Assembly: GCF_000953825.1 (NCBI RefSeq)
Contig: NZ_BBUL01000091.1
Coordinates: 124,001-188,000, forward strand
Source of the DNA: Cellvibrio sp. OA-2007
GTDB lineage: Bacteria > Pseudomonadota > Gammaproteobacteria > Pseudomonadales > Cellvibrionaceae
DNA: 64,000 bases
Reading direction: 5' to 3'
The translations under genes and the position numbers were made by a program. The notes under the pieces were generated by a model. The model saw nothing but the letters and a program-made list of their open reading frames with translations, did not search any database and was not told the origin of the DNA. Below, in pieces: positions 22,032-29,975 of this stretch; position 1 is the stretch's first letter; each line of letters begins with the position of its first letter.

Positions 22032-22904
22032 ATGCTTATGTGGATCGGTTCGCGCGTTAGTCTTATCTGCGGCATGCTGTTTTCAGCAGGCGTCGCCATG
22101 CAGGTAATGGCTGGCGATCTCTCTAGCGATGTACGCAAAGGTGCCTCGGGGCCAGATACGGGTAATGGCGGTTATGTAGAGGTGGGGCTCGGTTTTGCCA
22201 GTTATACCAATCCAGTGGTGGGTGCGCCGGAGGGCAATAAAAAAGGCGAGGTGCACAATGAAGGCTTTATCGATATTAGTGCACGCTACCAATATAACGG
22301 CTGGTTTGTGGAATTGTTTTCGCAGAGCCTCGAACAATTCACTATGGGTTACAACTTTTACAATGGTACCCATGATTATACCAGCGGCAATTGGGCGCTC
22401 GATTGGGTGGCACTCGCCGAACACGATGAAATGAGTGGCGATGAAACGAATGATTATCGCGGCCTAAAAACCCGTCGCGGTGATTTTATGTCAGGCCCGC
22501 GCGCCACAGCTTACCTCGGCAATTATATTGTGCAATTGCACGCGCTTACCGATATTAGCCGCACGCATTACGGTGAACTCTATTCGTTGAAACTTGCGCG
22601 TCACTGGCAATATCGCAACTGGAATTTTCACGGCATAGTTGGCGCTACTTATCGCTCACAAGAAATTACCGACTATTATTTTTCTATCGCTGCCGATGAA
22701 GCGTCTGAAGTATTTCCTGAGTACAGTGCACCTGCGGGTATGGCCTATGTTGCGGAGTTTGGTGCGACCTATCCGATCAGCGAGAAGTGGGTATTTCGCG
22801 GTTTTATCCGGCGCATTGAGCTGGCATCCGTTGCAACTAAAAGCCCGCTTATACTCGATGACCACGGCGAAATTATAGCCACTGCTATTAGTTACGTGTT
22901 TTAG
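22032..22904 (+). CDS. MipA/OmpV-family outer-membrane protein
   Basis: A 290-residue exported beta-barrel protein. After the signal peptide (about 1-27, ending VMAG) comes the YVEVGLGFASYTNPVVG opening typical of MipA/OmpV proteins, repeated amphipathic strands, and a C-terminal aromatic residue (ISYVF). Family members have been linked to murein-hydrolase scaffolding and to envelope stress and antibiotic responses. It starts 28 bases after the TonB receptor, and its stop codon overlaps the start of the next gene, so expression is probably coordinated. Confidence 0.88.
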   Translation: MLMWIGSRVSLICGMLFSAGVAMQVMAGDLSSDVRKGASGPDTGNGGYVEVGLGFASYTNPVVGAPEGNKKGEVHNEGFIDISARYQYNGWFVELFSQSLEQFTMGYNFYNGTHDYTSGNWALDWVALAEHDEMSGDETNDYRGLKTRRGDFMSGPRATAYLGNYIVQLHALTDISRTHYGELYSLKLARHWQYRNWNFHGIVGATYRSQEITDYYFSIAADEASEVFPEYSAPAGMAYVAEFGATYPISEKWVFRGFIRRIELASVATKSPLILDDHGEIIATAISYVF

Positions 22905-23365
22905 TGGTGGCGCTGCAAATGGAAAATTGTATAACCCACGCTTGGCAGAACATCAGATGCCTATGCAAATATGTACGGCACTTGATAAGTGCAAGTATTG
23001 TCTTGGGTATAACACATGCCGCAGTAGCGGATGAAGCTGCTAGCGCGGCCGCACAGCTGCAATTAAAACCTCAGCGCTGCGTGGCTTTGCACCAGGGACA
23101 GATGTGTTATCAGAGCGTGCAATTATTCTGGCGCGCTCCGCAAGCGGGGCATTATTGCCTTTATCAGCAGTTTGCCGAAACGCCCATTCACTGCTGGCAA
23201 GATGTTGCAGCAGGGCAATTTCAATATGAGTTTGCCAGTGATACATCGCTAGACTTGCAGCTGGTTAATGTGCAAGGCAACAAAATCCTGGCTACGGCCA
23301 CACTGGAAGTGGCTTGGGTGTACAAGGCAAATACCCGGCGTAAAACTCATTGGCGACTTTTTTAA
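22904..23365 (+). CDS. DUF3019 periplasmic protein
   Basis: A 153-residue exported protein; a hydrophobic stretch near residues 25-42 ending THAAVADEA acts as signal peptide after an unusually long polar N-terminus, so the true start may lie further in. The mature part has the LKPQRCVALHQGQMCYQ and HYCLYQ segments with paired cysteines that mark DUF3019. Such genes commonly sit beside MipA/OmpV and two-component genes in marine gammaproteobacteria. It overlaps the preceding stop by one base, and its TAA overlaps the next ATG (TAATG). Confidence 0.8.
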   Translation: MVALQMENCITHAWQNIRCLCKYVRHLISASIVLGITHAAVADEAASAAAQLQLKPQRCVALHQGQMCYQSVQLFWRAPQAGHYCLYQQFAETPIHCWQDVAAGQFQYEFASDTSLDLQLVNVQGNKILATATLEVAWVYKANTRRKTHWRLF

Positions 23366-24084
23366 TGATGAATACAGAAATACCCGCCAGCATTTTATTG
23401 GTAGAAGATGACGCCTCTTTGGCGGAGTGGATATTGCAATATTTGCGCGGCCATAATTATCAGCTGCACCATATTGATCGCGGTGATCAAGTGTTGGCTG
23501 CGGTAAAGCAACAGCCGCCGGAATTAATTATTCTGGATGTAATGCTGCCTTACAAAAATGGTTTTGATCTGTGTCGCGAATTGCGCGCTTTTTATTCCGG
23601 GCCAATTTTAATGCTCACCGCCTGCGGTGAAGAGGCCGATGAAATTCTCGGGCTGGAACTGGGCGCCAATGATTATTTAACCAAGCCGGTGCGCCCGCGA
23701 GTCTTGTTAGCACGAATTAAAGCCCTGCTGCGGCGGGAGCACATTGAACCGGCGAGTGCTACTGCGCAAGAGGGTGAATTGCAATTTGGCCAATTAAAAA
23801 TCCTGCGCGATGCCAAAAGTGTCTTTTATCGCAACCAGATGATTCCTGTCACTGCCAATGAATTTGATGTGCTCTGGTTATTGGCGAGTCAGGCTGGGCA
23901 AGTGATTCGTCGCGAGGCATTGGTAACACAATTGCGCGGCATTGAATACGATGGTTTTGATCGCTCGATTGATATCCGTATATCGCGCTTGCGAAAAAAA
24001 TTATTTGATAACACCGAGCAACCTTTTCGCATTAAAACCATCTGGGCCAAAGGCTATTTGTTTTCGCCCGAGGCGTGGGAATAA
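23365..24084 (+). CDS. OmpR/PhoB-family response regulator
   Basis: DNA-binding response regulator of 239 residues. The receiver domain (about 8-122) has acidic pair Glu14/Asp15 and phospho-acceptor Asp58 in LIILDVMLP, and a conserved Lys in the NDYLTKP loop. A winged helix (about 140-235) ends with the IKTIWAKGYLF segment typical of the family. I chose ATG 23365, which overlaps the DUF3019 stop, rather than TTG 23350. The kinase gene overlaps its 3' end. Likely targets are the upstream outer-membrane genes; that is inference. Confidence 0.95.
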   Translation: MMNTEIPASILLVEDDASLAEWILQYLRGHNYQLHHIDRGDQVLAAVKQQPPELIILDVMLPYKNGFDLCRELRAFYSGPILMLTACGEEADEILGLELGANDYLTKPVRPRVLLARIKALLRREHIEPASATAQEGELQFGQLKILRDAKSVFYRNQMIPVTANEFDVLWLLASQAGQVIRREALVTQLRGIEYDGFDRSIDIRISRLRKKLFDNTEQPFRIKTIWAKGYLFSPEAWE

Positions 24085-25364
24085 TTGTGCAGCGTTTAAC
24101 CCTGTCGCTGCTCTTGGTAGTGCTCACCGCCGTGGTTGGTCTCGGTTGGGGGATTGACCGCTGGTACAGTGCACAATTTGCCGATGAAGAAGACCCCACC
24201 GTTAGCGCCTATAAAAATGTCGGGCGTGAATTGGCGCTGTTGCTTGATGCGGGTGTGCCAACCCAGCAATGGTTGACTGACTCGCGGTTACATCCGCAGC
24301 TCTCCGACTACAGCGACTTCCCTTTGCCGGAAGGTGTTAAAACCCATTTTGAAACTGGCGAGCCGCTACTACTCGAGTCGGGCGATCAGCTCACCCTGCA
24401 TTTTTATCTCAAACAGCAACAACAGGTTTTATCCTTTGCGCTACCGAATGAATTGCGTCAGGAAAATAACGGCGCACTGCGCTGGTTGCTGACCTTGTTA
24501 TTTTACGGTGGCGTCATTGCCATGGTGTTAATTTGGCTGTACCCCTTATTGCGTCGCCTCGCTTTGCTGCGCAAATCAGCTCAGGCATTTGGTGCTGGTG
24601 ATTTGCAGGTGCGCATCGCCGCAGATAAGCATTCCTATATCCAAACTATCGAGCAGGATTTTAATCGCATGGCGCAGCGCATTGAGCAGCTGATCGCCGA
24701 CAATAAATTATTATCGCGCGGTTTGTCCCACGATCTGCGCACGCCGCTCGCTCGCTTGCGTTTTGGTTTGGATGTATTGGAAGAAGCGAACCTAACCCCG
24801 GAGCAGCAACAAAATCTCGCCCATTTAAATCGCGATCTTATGGCGATGGAGTCGCTAGTGGAGGCGTTGTTAAATTATGCACGTCTTGAGCAAGCGACCA
24901 TTTCATTTACGGCGCGGCCCATTCAGCTGGCAGAGTTTATAACGCAGCTGCACGATGATTTCTATTGCGAGCAGGTGGAGTTGGCAATCTCTTCATCCGC
25001 ATTAAATGTATCTGCGCAGGGTGATCCAGAATACCTCGCTATGTTGTTGCATAACCTGCTGCAAAACGCATTGCGCTATGGTGGTGGGCGTGTGCAGCTC
25101 AGCCTGCAGTGGCTGAGTGGTCAGTTGCAGTTAAATGTGGCCGACAACGGCACCGGAATTCCAATCGCTGAGCGTGAAAAAGTGCTTGCGCCGTTTTACC
25201 GCAGCGAGGGCAGTCATCATCAAGGGCGCGGTCATGGGTTGGGCTTGGCGATTGTGGCGCGTATCGCACAGTGGCATGGGGCCGAGCTGATTCTCACTGA
25301 GTCTACTGAGCTGGGTGGGCTCAGTGTTGTTGTGATTTTTCCAACTGAAAAATTAAGTGCCTAA
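24075..25364 (+). CDS. Membrane sensor histidine kinase
   Basis: Two-component kinase paired with the preceding regulator. Two transmembrane segments (about residues 8-25 and 137-158) flank a periplasmic sensor of about 110 residues with no recognised fold, followed by HAMP (about 160-205), HisKA with phospho-acceptor His219 in LSRGLSHDLRTPLARLR, and a HATPase domain with NLLQNALRYG (N box), DNGTGI and GLGLAIV. GTG 24075 overlaps the regulator gene by 10 bases; GTG 24087 is an equally plausible later start. Confidence 0.94.
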   Translation: MGIIVQRLTLSLLLVVLTAVVGLGWGIDRWYSAQFADEEDPTVSAYKNVGRELALLLDAGVPTQQWLTDSRLHPQLSDYSDFPLPEGVKTHFETGEPLLLESGDQLTLHFYLKQQQQVLSFALPNELRQENNGALRWLLTLLFYGGVIAMVLIWLYPLLRRLALLRKSAQAFGAGDLQVRIAADKHSYIQTIEQDFNRMAQRIEQLIADNKLLSRGLSHDLRTPLARLRFGLDVLEEANLTPEQQQNLAHLNRDLMAMESLVEALLNYARLEQATISFTARPIQLAEFITQLHDDFYCEQVELAISSSALNVSAQGDPEYLAMLLHNLLQNALRYGGGRVQLSLQWLSGQLQLNVADNGTGIPIAEREKVLAPFYRSEGSHHQGRGHGLGLAIVARIAQWHGAELILTESTELGGLSVVVIFPTEKLSA

Positions 25365-25385: not shown

Positions 25386-25410
25386 AAAGCACTATTATGG
25401 TGCTTTTTTC
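25386..25410 (+). terminator. Terminator after the sensor kinase
   Basis: AAAGCAC pairs with GTGCTTT around a short AT-rich loop and is followed by TTTTTT, closing the TonB/MipA/two-component run. Confidence 0.75.
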
Positions 25411-25579: not shown

Positions 25580-27832
25580 ATGGAAAAATTCGAGGCTCGC
25601 CAGTTCACGGCTCGCTATAACAAAATCATGCTGTATACCTTTTTTGCGGTGTTGCTGGTTTCAGCATTACTGATCAGCATTCAGACTATGAGCGAGGCAA
25701 AATATAAAAATAATCAGCTCATTGAGCAATTTAAAACGGAAGCTGTTGCAATCGATAATTTGATTGTGCGCGTCACTGTACTGCTGGATGTAATGCAAAA
25801 GAATGCGCAAGATTATTTTACTGATCCGCGCGCTACAGCGAGTTTTTATTTCAGCGGGCTTGCACCAATCGGCATTAACGAATATGGACTGGATAAGATT
25901 CCCGCACCCTATGTGGCCAGTGATACCGGCAATTTAACCGGCAAGGGGCGCATGGCAGAACTCAATAGTGAGTTGAAAAATGAAATAGAAATGGCATTCA
26001 GCCTGAATAGCGCTTTTAAGTCCACGCTCAATAGTGTCCCCAATGCGGCGTGGGTTTATTACACCTCAAAAAATAATTTTATTAATTTGTACCCCTGGGT
26101 GCCTTCGGCGGATTTTAAATTCACCGAGAAATTGCACAAAAAGGAATTTTATACTCGCGGTGTGCCAGCGGCAAATCCCGGTCGAGATATTTTTTGGACG
26201 TCGATTTATCTCGATGAGGCAGGCAAAGGCATTATGGTCACTGCGGCAAAACCAATTTATCGCCACGATGAGTTTTTAGGTACGGTCGCGATTGATTTTA
26301 CGCTGGAAGAATTGGGTAATTACGTCAAGCAGTTTAGGCCTGGCCTAGGCGAATTGTCGATCACCAACTCAGCTGGCCAGTTGCTGGCGCACACCCATAT
26401 GCAGCTCACGGAACACTCAGTTTTTAAAGATGCCTTGCCGGAAGGTGTGACAACAGAAGCTTTCTCTGCCTCGTGCAGCGACTTGCAATTGGTACAGTTA
26501 AATGGTTACCAATATATTTGTTATCAATTAACCAATGCGCCTTGGCAGGTGATTTACCTTGAGCAAACCCAATCTTTTATGAGCCGTATGTTCTCGTCTA
26601 TAGGTACAGTTTTTATTGTATTGCTAACGGCTTTAGGTATTTTGCTGTACTTGATTAAAAAACTTACCTTTCGCGAATTTATCTACCCTGCCGAATCTTT
26701 AGTTCGGCATATTGCCAAACAAGGGGTTGAGGAGAAACCCTCGTCGCGGGTTGTGCCTGCACCCTGGCTGCCTTGGTTTTCCAAAATCAGTGAAACCTTT
26801 CAACAAAACCGCAACTTGATTGATGAGATAAAACAAAAAAATACCGAGCTAACTGACCTCAATATTTCCCTTGAACGCTATATGCCGAAATTTATTTTGG
26901 TAGTAAGTCAGGAGCAGGGTTGCGGCGCCTCCACCCTCGGCAGTTATTTTGCTGGCAGTTTGGCAAAAATTAATAGTGATAAAAAAACCGTATACATGGA
27001 ATACCCGGCCAATAATCGCCTAAGTTCAGATTTAGGTTATGCCCCCAGTGAGCGAATTCACAAACACGCCAATGGTTTTGACATCTGGAATGATTTTGAT
27101 TTGGGTGAAGTGCCAGAGGGCGCAGAGTCATCGCTATTGATGACTAAAATTCTCAACCAATATGCCAATATTGTTATGCATGCAAGGGTCAAGGGCGATG
27201 TTAACGGGTTTATTGATACTTATCTTGAACCTTTATTTCGCTATGCCAAGGCGATAGTAGTGATGGTGCCTAATGGCGATAAGGCGGGGCAGCGAACATC
27301 GACCTTGGTGAAAAGCATTCAGCGGCATGTGCGTCAAGATCAAACCACGCTCTACACTATTTTAAACCGGACGAGGGAGAATATTAGCCTTGATATGAAG
27401 GTGAACTTTGAAATTCCGTATATTGCCGAGCTTGCTCCTTTCAGCAAGGCAGTATTTAACCTGCCCGAACTTGCGGCCAAAGTGGTGAATGAGATTGTGG
27501 AGCGCATAGAGCGTGTGCATCAGGTGTGTATTTTTATTCCCACCACCATCAATATTGATCAACCGTTTGACTCGGCGCTGTATGTGGATAAAACCATGGT
27601 GTTTTTGGGTGAAAAATTTGGTGGTGCGACCTCTTCCGAGGCGCGGGGTGTGTGGAATAGCGATGGCTCGGGTATGGTCAATGAGGCGGTTCATTTAGTG
27701 ATTTCCTATACCACTGAAGATGATCTCAACCGCTTTGCCAATGAAGTGATTGAGTTTATAAAGTTGCTCAAAGAAGAATTGCAACAGGAAGCGATGGCGC
27801 TTGAAATCAATAAAAAAATGATCTTGGTATAA
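25580..27832 (+). CDS. Cache-domain membrane sensor fused to a MinD/CpaE-like domain
   Basis: A 750-residue protein with an unusual composition. A transmembrane helix (about 14-35), a large periplasmic double-Cache-type sensor (about 36-330) and a second helix (about 340-362) resemble a chemoreceptor input. The cytoplasmic part (about 435-640) resembles MinD/CpaE P-loop proteins: VVSQEQGCGASTLGSYFA at about 441-458 stands where the deviant Walker A is expected but lacks the GKT/GKS lysine, and later AIVVMVPN and LYTILNRTR match MinD-fold strands. A final module (about 645-750, with KFGGATSSEARGVW and a DDLNRFANEV helix) resembles small stand-alone phage or bacterial domains of unknown role. 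The ion-channel gene starts 4 bases after its stop. Confidence 0.8.
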   Translation: MEKFEARQFTARYNKIMLYTFFAVLLVSALLISIQTMSEAKYKNNQLIEQFKTEAVAIDNLIVRVTVLLDVMQKNAQDYFTDPRATASFYFSGLAPIGINEYGLDKIPAPYVASDTGNLTGKGRMAELNSELKNEIEMAFSLNSAFKSTLNSVPNAAWVYYTSKNNFINLYPWVPSADFKFTEKLHKKEFYTRGVPAANPGRDIFWTSIYLDEAGKGIMVTAAKPIYRHDEFLGTVAIDFTLEELGNYVKQFRPGLGELSITNSAGQLLAHTHMQLTEHSVFKDALPEGVTTEAFSASCSDLQLVQLNGYQYICYQLTNAPWQVIYLEQTQSFMSRMFSSIGTVFIVLLTALGILLYLIKKLTFREFIYPAESLVRHIAKQGVEEKPSSRVVPAPWLPWFSKISETFQQNRNLIDEIKQKNTELTDLNISLERYMPKFILVVSQEQGCGASTLGSYFAGSLAKINSDKKTVYMEYPANNRLSSDLGYAPSERIHKHANGFDIWNDFDLGEVPEGAESSLLMTKILNQYANIVMHARVKGDVNGFIDTYLEPLFRYAKAIVVMVPNGDKAGQRTSTLVKSIQRHVRQDQTTLYTILNRTRENISLDMKVNFEIPYIAELAPFSKAVFNLPELAAKVVNEIVERIERVHQVCIFIPTTINIDQPFDSALYVDKTMVFLGEKFGGATSSEARGVWNSDGSGMVNEAVHLVISYTTEDDLNRFANEVIEFIKLLKEELQQEAMALEINKKMILV

Positions 27833-27836
27833 CACT

Positions 27837-28844
27837 ATGCGGCACTTGACACGAATTACCTTTGTATTTTTTCTGAGTATTTTCTCGCTATGGGCAAGCG
27901 CGGAGGAAATTGAATTTGCTCAGGAAGATCGGATTGAGATTCCGGTTGGAATTTATATTACCTCGCTTTACGCATTGGATATTCCCGAGAAAAAATTCAC
28001 CGTGTCTGCTTGGATTTGGTCAACCTTCGATCCCGCAAAACTACCGGACGACTATCGGTTTTATAACAAAATAGAAATCACCAACGCGCGCAGTTGGAGC
28101 ATTATTGAAAACGAAAACTTCACCATAAAAAATGCCGACGGCACTCTGCACTCCATGACCAAGTTTACTGCGGAAATCAATCAGGATTGGGATGTAAAGT
28201 ATTTCCCCTTTGATCGGCAGAGTATAACCATCAATATTGAAAGTATTGAATTGGACTCAACCCAAATAAAATTTGTGCCTGACATGAAAAATAGCCGGGT
28301 CAGTGATGAATTGGAATTGTCCGGCTGGCATGTATCGCCGATTGATATTCGCAGTTTTGATTATAAATACCCCACGACGTTTGGTATTCAAAGTGGGGCT
28401 CAGGGTATCTATCCACGCATGTCATTTATTGTTCCCATCGAACGCAATGGCACGCGGATTTTTTGGACCTATTTTTTAGGCTTCTTTGTTTCTTATATCA
28501 TCATTTGTATTCTGTATTTTTTTACTGGCGAGTTAATTGAAAGCCGGATTGGCCTGATTATGACGGCCTTGTTTGCTTGCGTTGGGAATAAATACACAGT
28601 GGATTTATTGCTGCCATCGAATGATGTGTTTACCTTGTCGGATTTGATTCAAGTTGCCTCGTTTATCATTGTTGGTGTTGGTCTGCTGAGTAGCGTGCTT
28701 ATCGTGGTGTTAGTAAAAAAAGGTGCGCAGACACTTGCGCAGCGAATTGATTTTTTTATTACCTGGGCGGTCACCCTTGGCTACCCGGCAGCCATATTGA
28801 TTGGCGTGCTAATGGCGCCCAGTGTGTTGGCGGCGCAAGGTTGA
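27837..28844 (+). CDS. Pentameric ligand-gated ion channel homologue (Cys-loop/Pro-loop family)
   Basis: Predicted inner-membrane channel related to GLIC, ELIC and animal nicotinic receptors. A signal peptide (about 1-22) precedes a beta-sandwich ligand-binding domain (about 25-205). Residues 117-128 read DWDVKYFPFDRQ, the Pro-loop core of the superfamily, with the two loop cysteines replaced as is usual in bacteria. The LSGWHV segment corresponds to the later conserved beta strands. Four helices follow: M1 about 209-229, pore-lining M2 about 236-252, M3 about 269-293 and M4 about 307-331. Length 335 fits a minimal channel without an extra domain. It is tightly coupled (4-bp gap) to the Cache-MinD gene, implying a joint sensory function. 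The ligand is unknown. Confidence 0.92.
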   Translation: MRHLTRITFVFFLSIFSLWASAEEIEFAQEDRIEIPVGIYITSLYALDIPEKKFTVSAWIWSTFDPAKLPDDYRFYNKIEITNARSWSIIENENFTIKNADGTLHSMTKFTAEINQDWDVKYFPFDRQSITINIESIELDSTQIKFVPDMKNSRVSDELELSGWHVSPIDIRSFDYKYPTTFGIQSGAQGIYPRMSFIVPIERNGTRIFWTYFLGFFVSYIIICILYFFTGELIESRIGLIMTALFACVGNKYTVDLLLPSNDVFTLSDLIQVASFIIVGVGLLSSVLIVVLVKKGAQTLAQRIDFFITWAVTLGYPAAILIGVLMAPSVLAAQG

Positions 28845-29099: not shown

Positions 29100-29975
29100 G
29101 TGATTAAACAACTTTTTAAATCAGCGGTGATGGCGTGTGCGTTGACGTCCAGTGCTGTATTTGCTGTGCCTGTAGATTTAGGTTTGGCAGGTGACTATAC
29201 CCTGCTAAGCGCAGGTCAAATCCCACAAGGTTCCTTAAATCTTGGTTCTTCATCGCATATTTACGGTAACGTGGGTGCGCGTTGGGTAGTAGGTGCAGCA
29301 CCGGGCACCATTATTGAGGGCGATTTACACGGCGGATATATCAATGCTGCACCGGGCTTGGTAGTTACCGGTGAAACTCGCACCTTGAGTGATGCCGAGT
29401 GGGATGCAATATTTGCCGATCTTAGCGCTGCATCAGCGCAAGCACTTGGCATGGGGATGTTTGGTACCAATTTAGGTGCAATTAGTGAATCTACCATCCT
29501 GAACGCTACCGGAAGCCTGAGTGTCTTCAATGTTAACGGTAGTATCAATCTGAACAATGGTAAAAGCCTGACCCTTAAAGGCAATGCGAGCGATCAATTT
29601 GTCATTAACGTTTCAAATGATTTTTTCCTTTGCAAAGATGCTTTTATCGGTTGTGATGCAGGAATTATTCTTGACGGAGTCAGTGCAGATAACGTGCTTT
29701 TTAACATGTATGGTGCTGGTTTAGCGCAAGTGAATGGCGATTTCGTTGGCGCCATGCGCGGTAATTTTATCTCTGCAGGAAACTTTAGCTGGATTCTGGG
29801 TGACGGAATGGTTTTTGACCAAGTGCGAATCTTGGCAGGTAATATTCCCACTGCGAATGTGCAAGATGTTTTTGGTATTACCCCTCCACCAGTGAATGTC
29901 CCTGAGCCATCATTATTATTGATGTTTGGTTTTAGTTTGCTGGGTTTAGGTTTGGCGCGCCGCCGTCAGCGTTAA
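29100..29975 (+). CDS. PEP-CTERM sorted secreted protein with ice-binding-like (DUF3494-like) repeats
   Basis: A 291-residue exported protein. The signal peptide (about 1-22, ending AVFA) leads to a Gly- and Ser-rich beta-type domain (about 25-255) with successive VVGAAPGTIIEGDLHG-like turns that resemble DUF3494/ice-binding beta-solenoid proteins; this fold call is tentative. The C-terminus carries a classic PEP-CTERM signal: VPEPS, a hydrophobic helix, then an RRRQR tail, which is recognised by exosortase/EpsH. The GTG start has AAAGG upstream. Expected fate is cleavage and export to the surface or exopolysaccharide matrix. No exosortase is in the window. Confidence 0.88.
   Translation: MIKQLFKSAVMACALTSSAVFAVPVDLGLAGDYTLLSAGQIPQGSLNLGSSSHIYGNVGARWVVGAAPGTIIEGDLHGGYINAAPGLVVTGETRTLSDAEWDAIFADLSAASAQALGMGMFGTNLGAISESTILNATGSLSVFNVNGSINLNNGKSLTLKGNASDQFVINVSNDFFLCKDAFIGCDAGIILDGVSADNVLFNMYGAGLAQVNGDFVGAMRGNFISAGNFSWILGDGMVFDQVRILAGNIPTANVQDVFGITPPPVNVPEPSLLLMFGFSLLGLGLARRRQR

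Follow-up and report, generated by a model that had tools for sequence, protein, structure and literature searches.

To our knowledge, the role played in their own cells by the bacterial relatives of nerve receptors, namely the prokaryotic pentameric ligand-gated ion channels, is largely open. Such channels have nonetheless been tied genetically to sensor domains, since, as described by Tasneem et al. (2004; PMC549065), they occur fused to Cache/MCP-N domains in Methanosarcina, Cytophaga and Microbulbifer, while an operon of Rhodopseudomonas comprises a channel together with a stand-alone Cache domain; a chemoreceptor role was proposed. In another kind of arrangement, the type III CRISPR system of C. 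botulinum as reported in PMC10600005, the enzyme encoded beside the CorA membrane channel is an S-adenosylmethionine (SAM) lyase or SAM-AMP lyase. The present work concerns a two-gene unit at positions 25580-28844 of a 64,000-nucleotide stretch of DNA from Cellvibrio sp. OA-2007 (contig NZ_BBUL01000091.1, positions 124,001 to 188,000 of the forward strand), hereafter the window. Its first gene encodes a receptor with a dCache domain and, at the other end, a predicted SAM-lyase-type domain; its second gene encodes a channel, and the occurrence of the two genes across genomes supports their functional pairing. The features of the unit are the following:

25580-27832, + strand: gene 1, receptor, 750 aa, in the order first transmembrane helix (TM1), dCache, second transmembrane helix (TM2), coil, probable degenerate MinD-like region, predicted SAM-lyase-type domain
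25625-25681, + strand: TM1, residues 16-34, from hydropathy
25976-26554, + strand: dCache_1 sensor domain, residues 133-325, predicted periplasmic (PF02743, E 5.8e-13)
26600-26656, + strand: TM2, residues 341-359, from hydropathy
26876-27511, + strand: probable degenerate MinD/ParA-like region, residues 433-644, ATPase motif lost, from a weak profile comparison
26906-26935, + strand: former Walker A site SQEQGCGAST, residues 443-452, both lysines absent in the alignment
27512-27829, + strand: predicted SAM-lyase/SAM-AMP-lyase-type domain of the PII/CutA superfamily, residues 645-750, with E702 and Q736 as putative catalytic Glu and B-loop Gln
27837-28844, + strand: gene 2, pentameric ligand-gated ion channel subunit, 335 aa
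28191-28220, + strand: Pro-loop core DVKYFPFDRQ, residues 119-128, F123 and P124 being invariant in 10 aligned channels
28545-28604, + strand: M2 pore helix, residues about 237-256, from alignment to 2vl0, containing LFA[CV]VGNKYx[VI]D

An earlier note on this DNA, made from the letters alone, had described two reading frames four bases apart, a Cache sensor joined to a MinD- or P-loop-like domain in the first, and in the second a channel of the GLIC/nicotinic-receptor superfamily with the DVKYFPFDRQ core and four helices; it had suggested HMMER and Foldseek searches of both products. The spacing is as described, the stop codon TAA of gene 1 (27830-27832) being followed by CACT and by the ATG of gene 2 (27837) on the same strand, and the two genes are probably co-transcribed. 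HMMER bears out both the dCache domain and the channel, and Foldseek adds a SAM-lyase fold, predicted for a part of the receptor that had been overlooked, i.e., its C-terminal domain (residues 645-750). Of the MinD-like domain, what survives is at best a degenerate relative, with a single weak profile similarity, no match to any ATPase family and the Walker lysines gone.

By its sequence, the gene 2 product is a prokaryotic pentameric ligand-gated channel. Its match to Neur_chan_LBD (PF02931; E 7.6e-8) scores 32.5 bits, above the cut-off of 26; channels of this superfamily are rare (PF02931 in 12/369 genomes of the class). With the NCBIfam subfamily model LGIC_1 (NF033918), it scores 52.6 bits (E 4.5e-14) and falls short of the cut-off of 500. 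At E 0.01, the PDB contains 128 matching sequences, the best 60 of which have E 2e-10 to 2e-7; the first is 2vl0 (ELIC; E 2.1e-10), and entries of the proton-gated channel GLIC appear from E 2.8e-8. Across the 10 aligned channels, the pre-M1 arginine R203 is invariant, and F125 and D126 are nearly so. M1, M3 and M4 are seen by hydropathy and M2, located through the alignment to 2vl0, reads ESRIGLIMTALFACVGNKYTVD; its motif LFA[CV]VGNKYx[VI]D is present in 8 of the 10 channels, namely the seven from Cellvibrio and one from Saprospiraceae (L006; L and G numbers are our labels for loci and genomes), and absent in L032 and L034. In the usual prime numbering, positions -2', 0', 2', 9' and 16' of the helix would be held by Glu, Arg, Gly, Phe and Tyr, respectively; by inference only, this would be a pattern of the cation type.

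In the gene 1 product, the dCache_1 domain (PF02743), with 49.4 bits, exceeds its cut-off of 45 and sits between the two transmembrane helices; the protein also matches MCP-like_PDC_1 (E 3.9e-8). At its C-terminus, residues 645-750 match two families without annotated function, phrog_3543 (E 2e-8) and phrog_31027 (E 3e-8). A structure model of residues 424-750, whose alignment included 14 viral rows, reaches block-mean predicted local distance difference test (pLDDT) values of 78-95 over this domain, and Foldseek ranks Svi3-3, a phage SAM lyase, first among its PDB matches (6zm9, with E 2.4e-7 and a target-based TM-score of 0.62), followed by CutA (1o5j, E 3.4e-4; 1vhf, E 4.4e-4), the NIF3-related 2gx8 (E 4.4e-4) and the SAM-AMP lyase 9gab (E 1.1e-3). 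Judging by length and name, the best 50 of the 979 Foldseek matches mainly cover the C-terminal domain; viral matches are mostly unnamed, two with E about 0.01 being annotated as SAM hydrolases. At the level of sequence, a 19-row profile of the family returns six matches at E 10 from all PDB sequences, Svi3-3 coming first (E 0.0063) and the others being two SAM-AMP lyase entries (9gad, 9gab) and 9lqd, named "SAM lyase" (E 0.34-0.37), together with two unrelated proteins (E 0.32 and 0.39). As a yardstick, a five-row profile of T3-type SAM lyases misses Svi3-3 in the PDB at E 10, T3-type enzymes and Svi3-3 being held in PMC7877911 to form one structural family.

The putative active site points in the same direction. 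The HMMER alignment places S50, G56, Y58, E69, Q104, E105 and E110 of Svi3-3 opposite T684, G690, W692, E702, Q736, E737 and E742 of the receptor, a matching made by sequence alignment and not by model coordinates, in which the S50/T684 correspondence falls on the margin of the aligned region. In the 19 rows, these columns hold T 18 S 1 (T684), G 19 (G690), W 16 Y 3 (W692), E 18 D 1 (E702), Q 18 with one gap (Q736), E 9 D 8 S 1 with one gap (E737), and E 18 with one gap (E742). In Svi3-3, whose active sites sit at trimer interfaces, E69 variants are reported to lower activity 1500- to 4500-fold, as against fivefold for Y58F and threefold for E105Q (PMC7877911). The only ligand-contacting residues structurally common to SAM lyase and SAM-AMP lyase are a Glu and a Gln, which by sequence would correspond to E702 and Q736 of the receptor. 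A SAM-lyase fold with its active-site residues is well supported by computation for residues 645-750.

Relatives of this domain also occur outside Cellvibrio. A tblastn search of plasmids at E 1 returned 24 records, the best being small Priestia and Peribacillus proteins (E 9e-17 to 1e-15), most of them labelled DUF3574, followed by Bacillus and Planktothrix and by weak matches elsewhere; in viruses, one Bacillus phage (two records) and 15 viral contigs carry relatives. All 19 relatives outside Cellvibrio whose frames were measured (14 viral contigs and loci L057, L058, L081, L082 and L083, L082 and L092 being alike) are stand-alone proteins of 105-157 aa, and among 249 genomes sampled across the phylum the domain is matched solely in the genome of the window. 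The gene neighbourhoods of these stand-alone genes were uninformative, and in the open-licence PMC literature DUF3574 led to one unrelated paper. The stand-alone phrog_3543-type proteins of phages and plasmids (L057, L058, L081, L084-L095, L097 and L098) share the SAM-lyase active-site residues and are predicted to be SAM(-nucleotide) lyases.

The C-terminal domain could also be a non-catalytic sensor of the PII/CutA type, which would bind SAM, methylthioadenosine (MTA) or a nucleotide and, from the cytoplasmic side, directly gate or plug the channel, much as GlnK acts on AmtB; the dCache domain would then provide a second input. We regard this as a real but rather unlikely alternative. The Foldseek matches to CutA and the retention of the ligand-facing residues speak for it, and PII proteins are described as binding ligands at trimer interfaces and acting on other proteins (PMC7877911), but a pure sensor would have no need of the catalytic Glu that 18/19 family rows retain, and the loop from the aromatic residue to this Glu, 10 residues as read from the sequence, resembles the short T-loop of lyases more than that of signalling PII proteins.

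Between TM2 and this domain, the MinD-like region is less clear. Compared by hhalign with a profile of nine MinD/ParA-type proteins from the same genome (11 loci tried; L060 and L067 dropped, no P-loop frame having been picked), the receptor cytoplasmic profile gives, for 58 columns about the P-loop, P 5.5e-4 with a probability of 30%, as against P 0.14-0.7 for the reversed profile and four other profiles. At the Walker site, the seven known receptors read SQEQGCGAST, SLDEGCGATN (twice), SLEQHCGATT, SLESGSGATT and SVEPGCGATT (twice), lysine-free in 7/7. No ATPase family was found for residues 424-650 among Pfam and NCBIfam models, nor any Pfam ATPase match even at E 5; the cytoplasmic profile finds nothing at E 10 among PDB sequences and, in viruses, 13 stretches fit its pattern with none confirmed. 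Predicted models show an alpha/beta pattern in this region at low to medium confidence; the AlphaFold2 model of the whole receptor from seven sequences was of no use (mean pLDDT 39.6). TadZ_N, sought as a source of CpaE/TadZ comparison sequences, gave a single match, below the cut-off, in 1/143 genomes. Weak matches to methylisocitrate lyase (5/7 members, best E 0.0031) and to GrlR (5/7 members, best E 0.0038) were judged to be chance. The region is probably a degenerate relative of MinD/ParA in which the usual motif would no longer serve ATP hydrolysis.

The case for functional pairing rests on co-occurrence. Confinement of the pair to a single genome, which the earlier note had raised as grounds for giving up the idea, is not what is found: among 21 Cellvibrio genomes, that of the window included, a close channel (at least 70% identity) is present in 7/21 and the full receptor in the same 7/21, the two genes being adjacent in 7/7, receptor first, with a gap of 2-4 nt (the G017 channel runs off its contig and is cut at 291 aa). 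In the other 14, there are distant channel matches in G010 and G019 and weak receptor matches, to the Cache region, in G004 and G005. Over 144 genomes of the family, a channel match occurs in 11 (the seven, G010, G019, and the distant G122 and G130), and the receptor cytoplasmic part in eight, i.e., the seven and a 55-residue match with an internal stop (E 4.8e-4) that is probably due to chance. In the order and class sets, which are even samples with few members of the genus, the cytoplasmic profile is found in 2/390 (G000, G003) and 1/369 (G000) genomes. A single fused gene is ruled out by a clear stop and start in 7/7 genomes, and a sequencing artefact by presence in seven genomes and by purifying selection. 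The earlier note had also asked whether the channel exists elsewhere without its partner; this is so of distant channels only (8 loci, L006, L032, L033, L034, L035, L128, L129 and L130, at most 32% identity), around which no receptor match at E 0.01 was found in the 3.6-12.9 kb of DNA examined for each, while every close channel has its partner.

Among these distant channels, other arrangements are seen. At L033 (5265-9467; G010 C183), an ELIC-like channel (401 aa; E 9.8e-19 to PF02931) is followed, after about 64 nt and on the same strand, by a CHASE-PAS-GGDEF-EAL sensor of 977 aa. At L035 (1168-3576; G122, another genus of the family), a 978-aa frame with a channel match (E 4.9e-6) and a weak dCache_1 match below the cut-off (E 8.1e-5, 22.7 bits vs 45) is probably, from its domain matches, a Cache-channel fusion of the kind that Tasneem et al. 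described. At L128, on plasmid pAB510b of Azospirillum sp. B510, a 32% identical channel stands in a row with genes for a substrate-binding protein, an alanine racemase and a transporter.

The two genes might share only a promoter and a stimulus, their products acting separately on one kind of ligand, much as in the proposal of Tasneem et al. of ligand capture or sensing plus flux. The Azospirillum channel, near substrate-binding protein genes and with no receptor match, fits this account, as do published neighbourhoods in which channels are paired with varied binding proteins (PMC549065, as described there). We consider it improbable, given the 7/7 co-occurrence across two genomic contexts and the large conserved cytoplasmic part of the receptor, needless for ligand capture. 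These two contexts are a site following an RstAB-like two-component system (4/7: the window, G001, G007 and G017) and one following a transporter gene, by eye of the major facilitator superfamily type (3/7: G003, G014 and G015). The two-component kinase gene is itself present in 13/21 genomes of the genus (E 1e-80): the pair lies directly 3' in four, a PEP-CTERM gene follows directly with no pair in 5/13 (G003, G006, G009, G014 and G016), other genes follow in 2/13 (G010 and G013), and in 2/13 (G018 and G019) the contig ends there, which is uninformative. In G003 and G014, the kinase site is empty; these genomes are therefore empty at one place and carry the pair at the other.

Receptor and channel trees agree on the groups G003+G014+G015, G001+G007 and G014+G015. 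Ratios of nonsynonymous to synonymous substitution rates (dN/dS; Nei-Gojobori, pairs with finite dS), rough because synonymous sites are near saturation, are 0.064 for the receptor (15/21 pairs) and 0.083 for the channel (14/21); within the receptor, they are 0.026 for the SAM-lyase-type domain (11/21), which is strongly supported as its most constrained part, and 0.085 for the MinD-like region (18/21). The unit behaves as a mobile one under purifying selection. Joint function, as the earlier note had it, is well supported by co-occurrence and adjacency in 7/21 genomes and two contexts; the mechanism is a matter of proposal.

The unit could also be an anti-phage or stress membrane effector resembling the branch of type III CRISPR that works with SAM-AMP and CorA, with the channel restrained or reset by the SAM-lyase-type domain. 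Its patchy occurrence (7/21) at two chromosomal places would fit, the relatives of that domain include many phage proteins, and in the type III system the gene of the CorA channel, a predicted pentamer, adjoins that of a SAM-AMP-degrading enzyme (PMC10600005, as described there). However, neither protein matches any PADLOC model at E 0.01, a periplasmic dCache input is in our judgement unusual for defence, and the immediate neighbours scanned are the two-component system, DUF3019 and PEP-CTERM genes. We regard this explanation as very unlikely.

The account that we favour is of a mobile two-gene signalling unit coupling the dCache/SAM-lyase receptor with the channel. The channel would be pentameric, with its ligand domain in the periplasm, and probably cation-selective. 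In the same membrane, the receptor would sense a periplasmic small molecule through its dCache domain, the signal passing via TM2 and the coiled coil into the cytoplasm, where a non-ATPase scaffold of MinD-like type and the SAM-lyase-type PII domain would together form a module. Binding of the external ligand would switch the lyase domain, which would bind and probably cleave SAM or a SAM-nucleotide. The amount of a SAM-derived molecule and the passage of ions through the channel would in this way be set together; the receptor may tune the channel, or both may respond to one ligand. We infer, in short, that the receptor alters SAM or SAM-nucleotide chemistry upon meeting its periplasmic ligand, and that this is coupled to channel opening. 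With the mechanism as proposed, we hold this account tentatively, at somewhat less than an even chance. A bolder form, in which the transmembrane receptor has a SAM- or SAM-nucleotide lyase output, is co-inherited with the nicotinic-receptor-type channel, and a SAM-derived messenger or product (MTA, homoserine lactone) couples to the channel as the first such link outside CRISPR, is in our view unlikely.

Several observations weigh against the favoured account. Distant channels manage without this receptor as partner, and the two trees place G000 and G017 differently (with support of 0.60 for the receptor and 0.91 for the channel). Against T3-type SAM lyases, the 19-row profile gives a weak match (P 0.0019, probability 14%, the Gln aligned and the Glu near-aligned) and the 7-row profile a weaker one still (P 0.026, probability 2%), three unrelated profiles giving P 0.5 to 0.92; the Pfam SAM-lyase model PF23780 scores 14.4 bits on the domain, with a cut-off of 28. 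A related stand-alone Priestia protein has a hydrophobic N-terminus, odd for a cytosolic SAM enzyme. dCache domains are usually dimers, and a pentameric ligand-gated channel is a pentamer. SAM-lyase relatives are described as trimers (PMC7877911), and a stoichiometric complex is therefore not obvious.

As for its surroundings in the window, the unit is preceded by a DUF3019 gene and then the RstA/RstB-like two-component system (22904-25364), and by one further feature:

25386-25409, + strand: terminator-like hairpin with T run, AAAGCACTATTATGGTGCTTTTTT, read by eye and absent from the terminator/promoter scan listing

By eye, this hairpin separates the receptor-channel unit from the upstream RstB-like gene. 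The channel gene may or may not have a promoter of its own: a + strand match at 27735-27764 is one of 10 matches on both strands, shuffles giving 8.6. A relative of the DUF3019 gene precedes the two-component system in 12/13 of the genus genomes having the kinase, that of the window included; in G016, the exception, the gene picker chose a different frame at that position. Downstream lies a PEP-CTERM protein with an ice-binding-like adhesive domain (29100-29975; PF20597, E 5.5e-8), the neighbour across the empty site.

The constant association of the close channel with one defined receptor (7/7 in the genomes searched) provides a genetic handle on the role of the channel, and the C-terminal end of the receptor points to a testable class of metabolites, i.e., SAM, SAM-AMP, S-adenosylhomocysteine (SAH) and MTA; by extension, the phage and plasmid family phrog_3543 may consist of SAM(-nucleotide) lyases. 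The unit suggests an undescribed way to link outside chemicals, cell metabolism and ion flow. Among the matches listed in the open-licence PMC literature on channels with Cache, Cellvibrio, gene neighbourhoods, or SAM lyase with sensor or channel, no receptor of this architecture was found, and PMC4795631 makes no mention of Cache, Cellvibrio, operon or neighbor.

Compared with known systems, the gene 2 product shares with ELIC and GLIC a Pro-loop ligand domain, the pre-M1 arginine and a channel domain with four transmembrane helices, but is distant in sequence, carries LFA[CV]VGNKYx[VI]D in M2 and, in its close forms, always adjoins the receptor gene (7/7). The receptor resembles MinD/ParA ATPases weakly, by profile over the P-loop region, but is devoid of their signature and catalytic lysines and has also lost the acidic motif that follows. 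With Svi3-3 and the SAM-AMP lyases, it would share a fold and the Ser/Thr, aromatic, Glu, Gln and acidic set of the Svi3-3 active site; those are stand-alone enzymes (one phage form having an extra N-terminal domain), whereas here the domain is the tail of a transmembrane sensor. The type III-B CRISPR CorA system, as described in PMC10600005, likewise sets a membrane channel, predicted to be a pentamer, beside a SAM-nucleotide lyase gene, but the present channel is of another superfamily with its ligand domain outside, which is suggestive of a mechanistic parallel and not of membership. As for the channels of Tasneem et al. (2004; PMC549065), a Cache domain is in both cases tied genetically to a channel of the same superfamily, and since bacterial channels fused to or in an operon with Cache are published there, the link between Cache and channel is not new, the earlier note having overstated its novelty. 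What differs is that the Rhodopseudomonas Cache domain is, as described, stand-alone, whereas here a separate transmembrane receptor bears a cytoplasmic, probably degenerate MinD-like region and a predicted SAM-lyase-type domain; it is this SAM-lyase receptor, and not the pairing of Cache with a channel, that would surprise a specialist.

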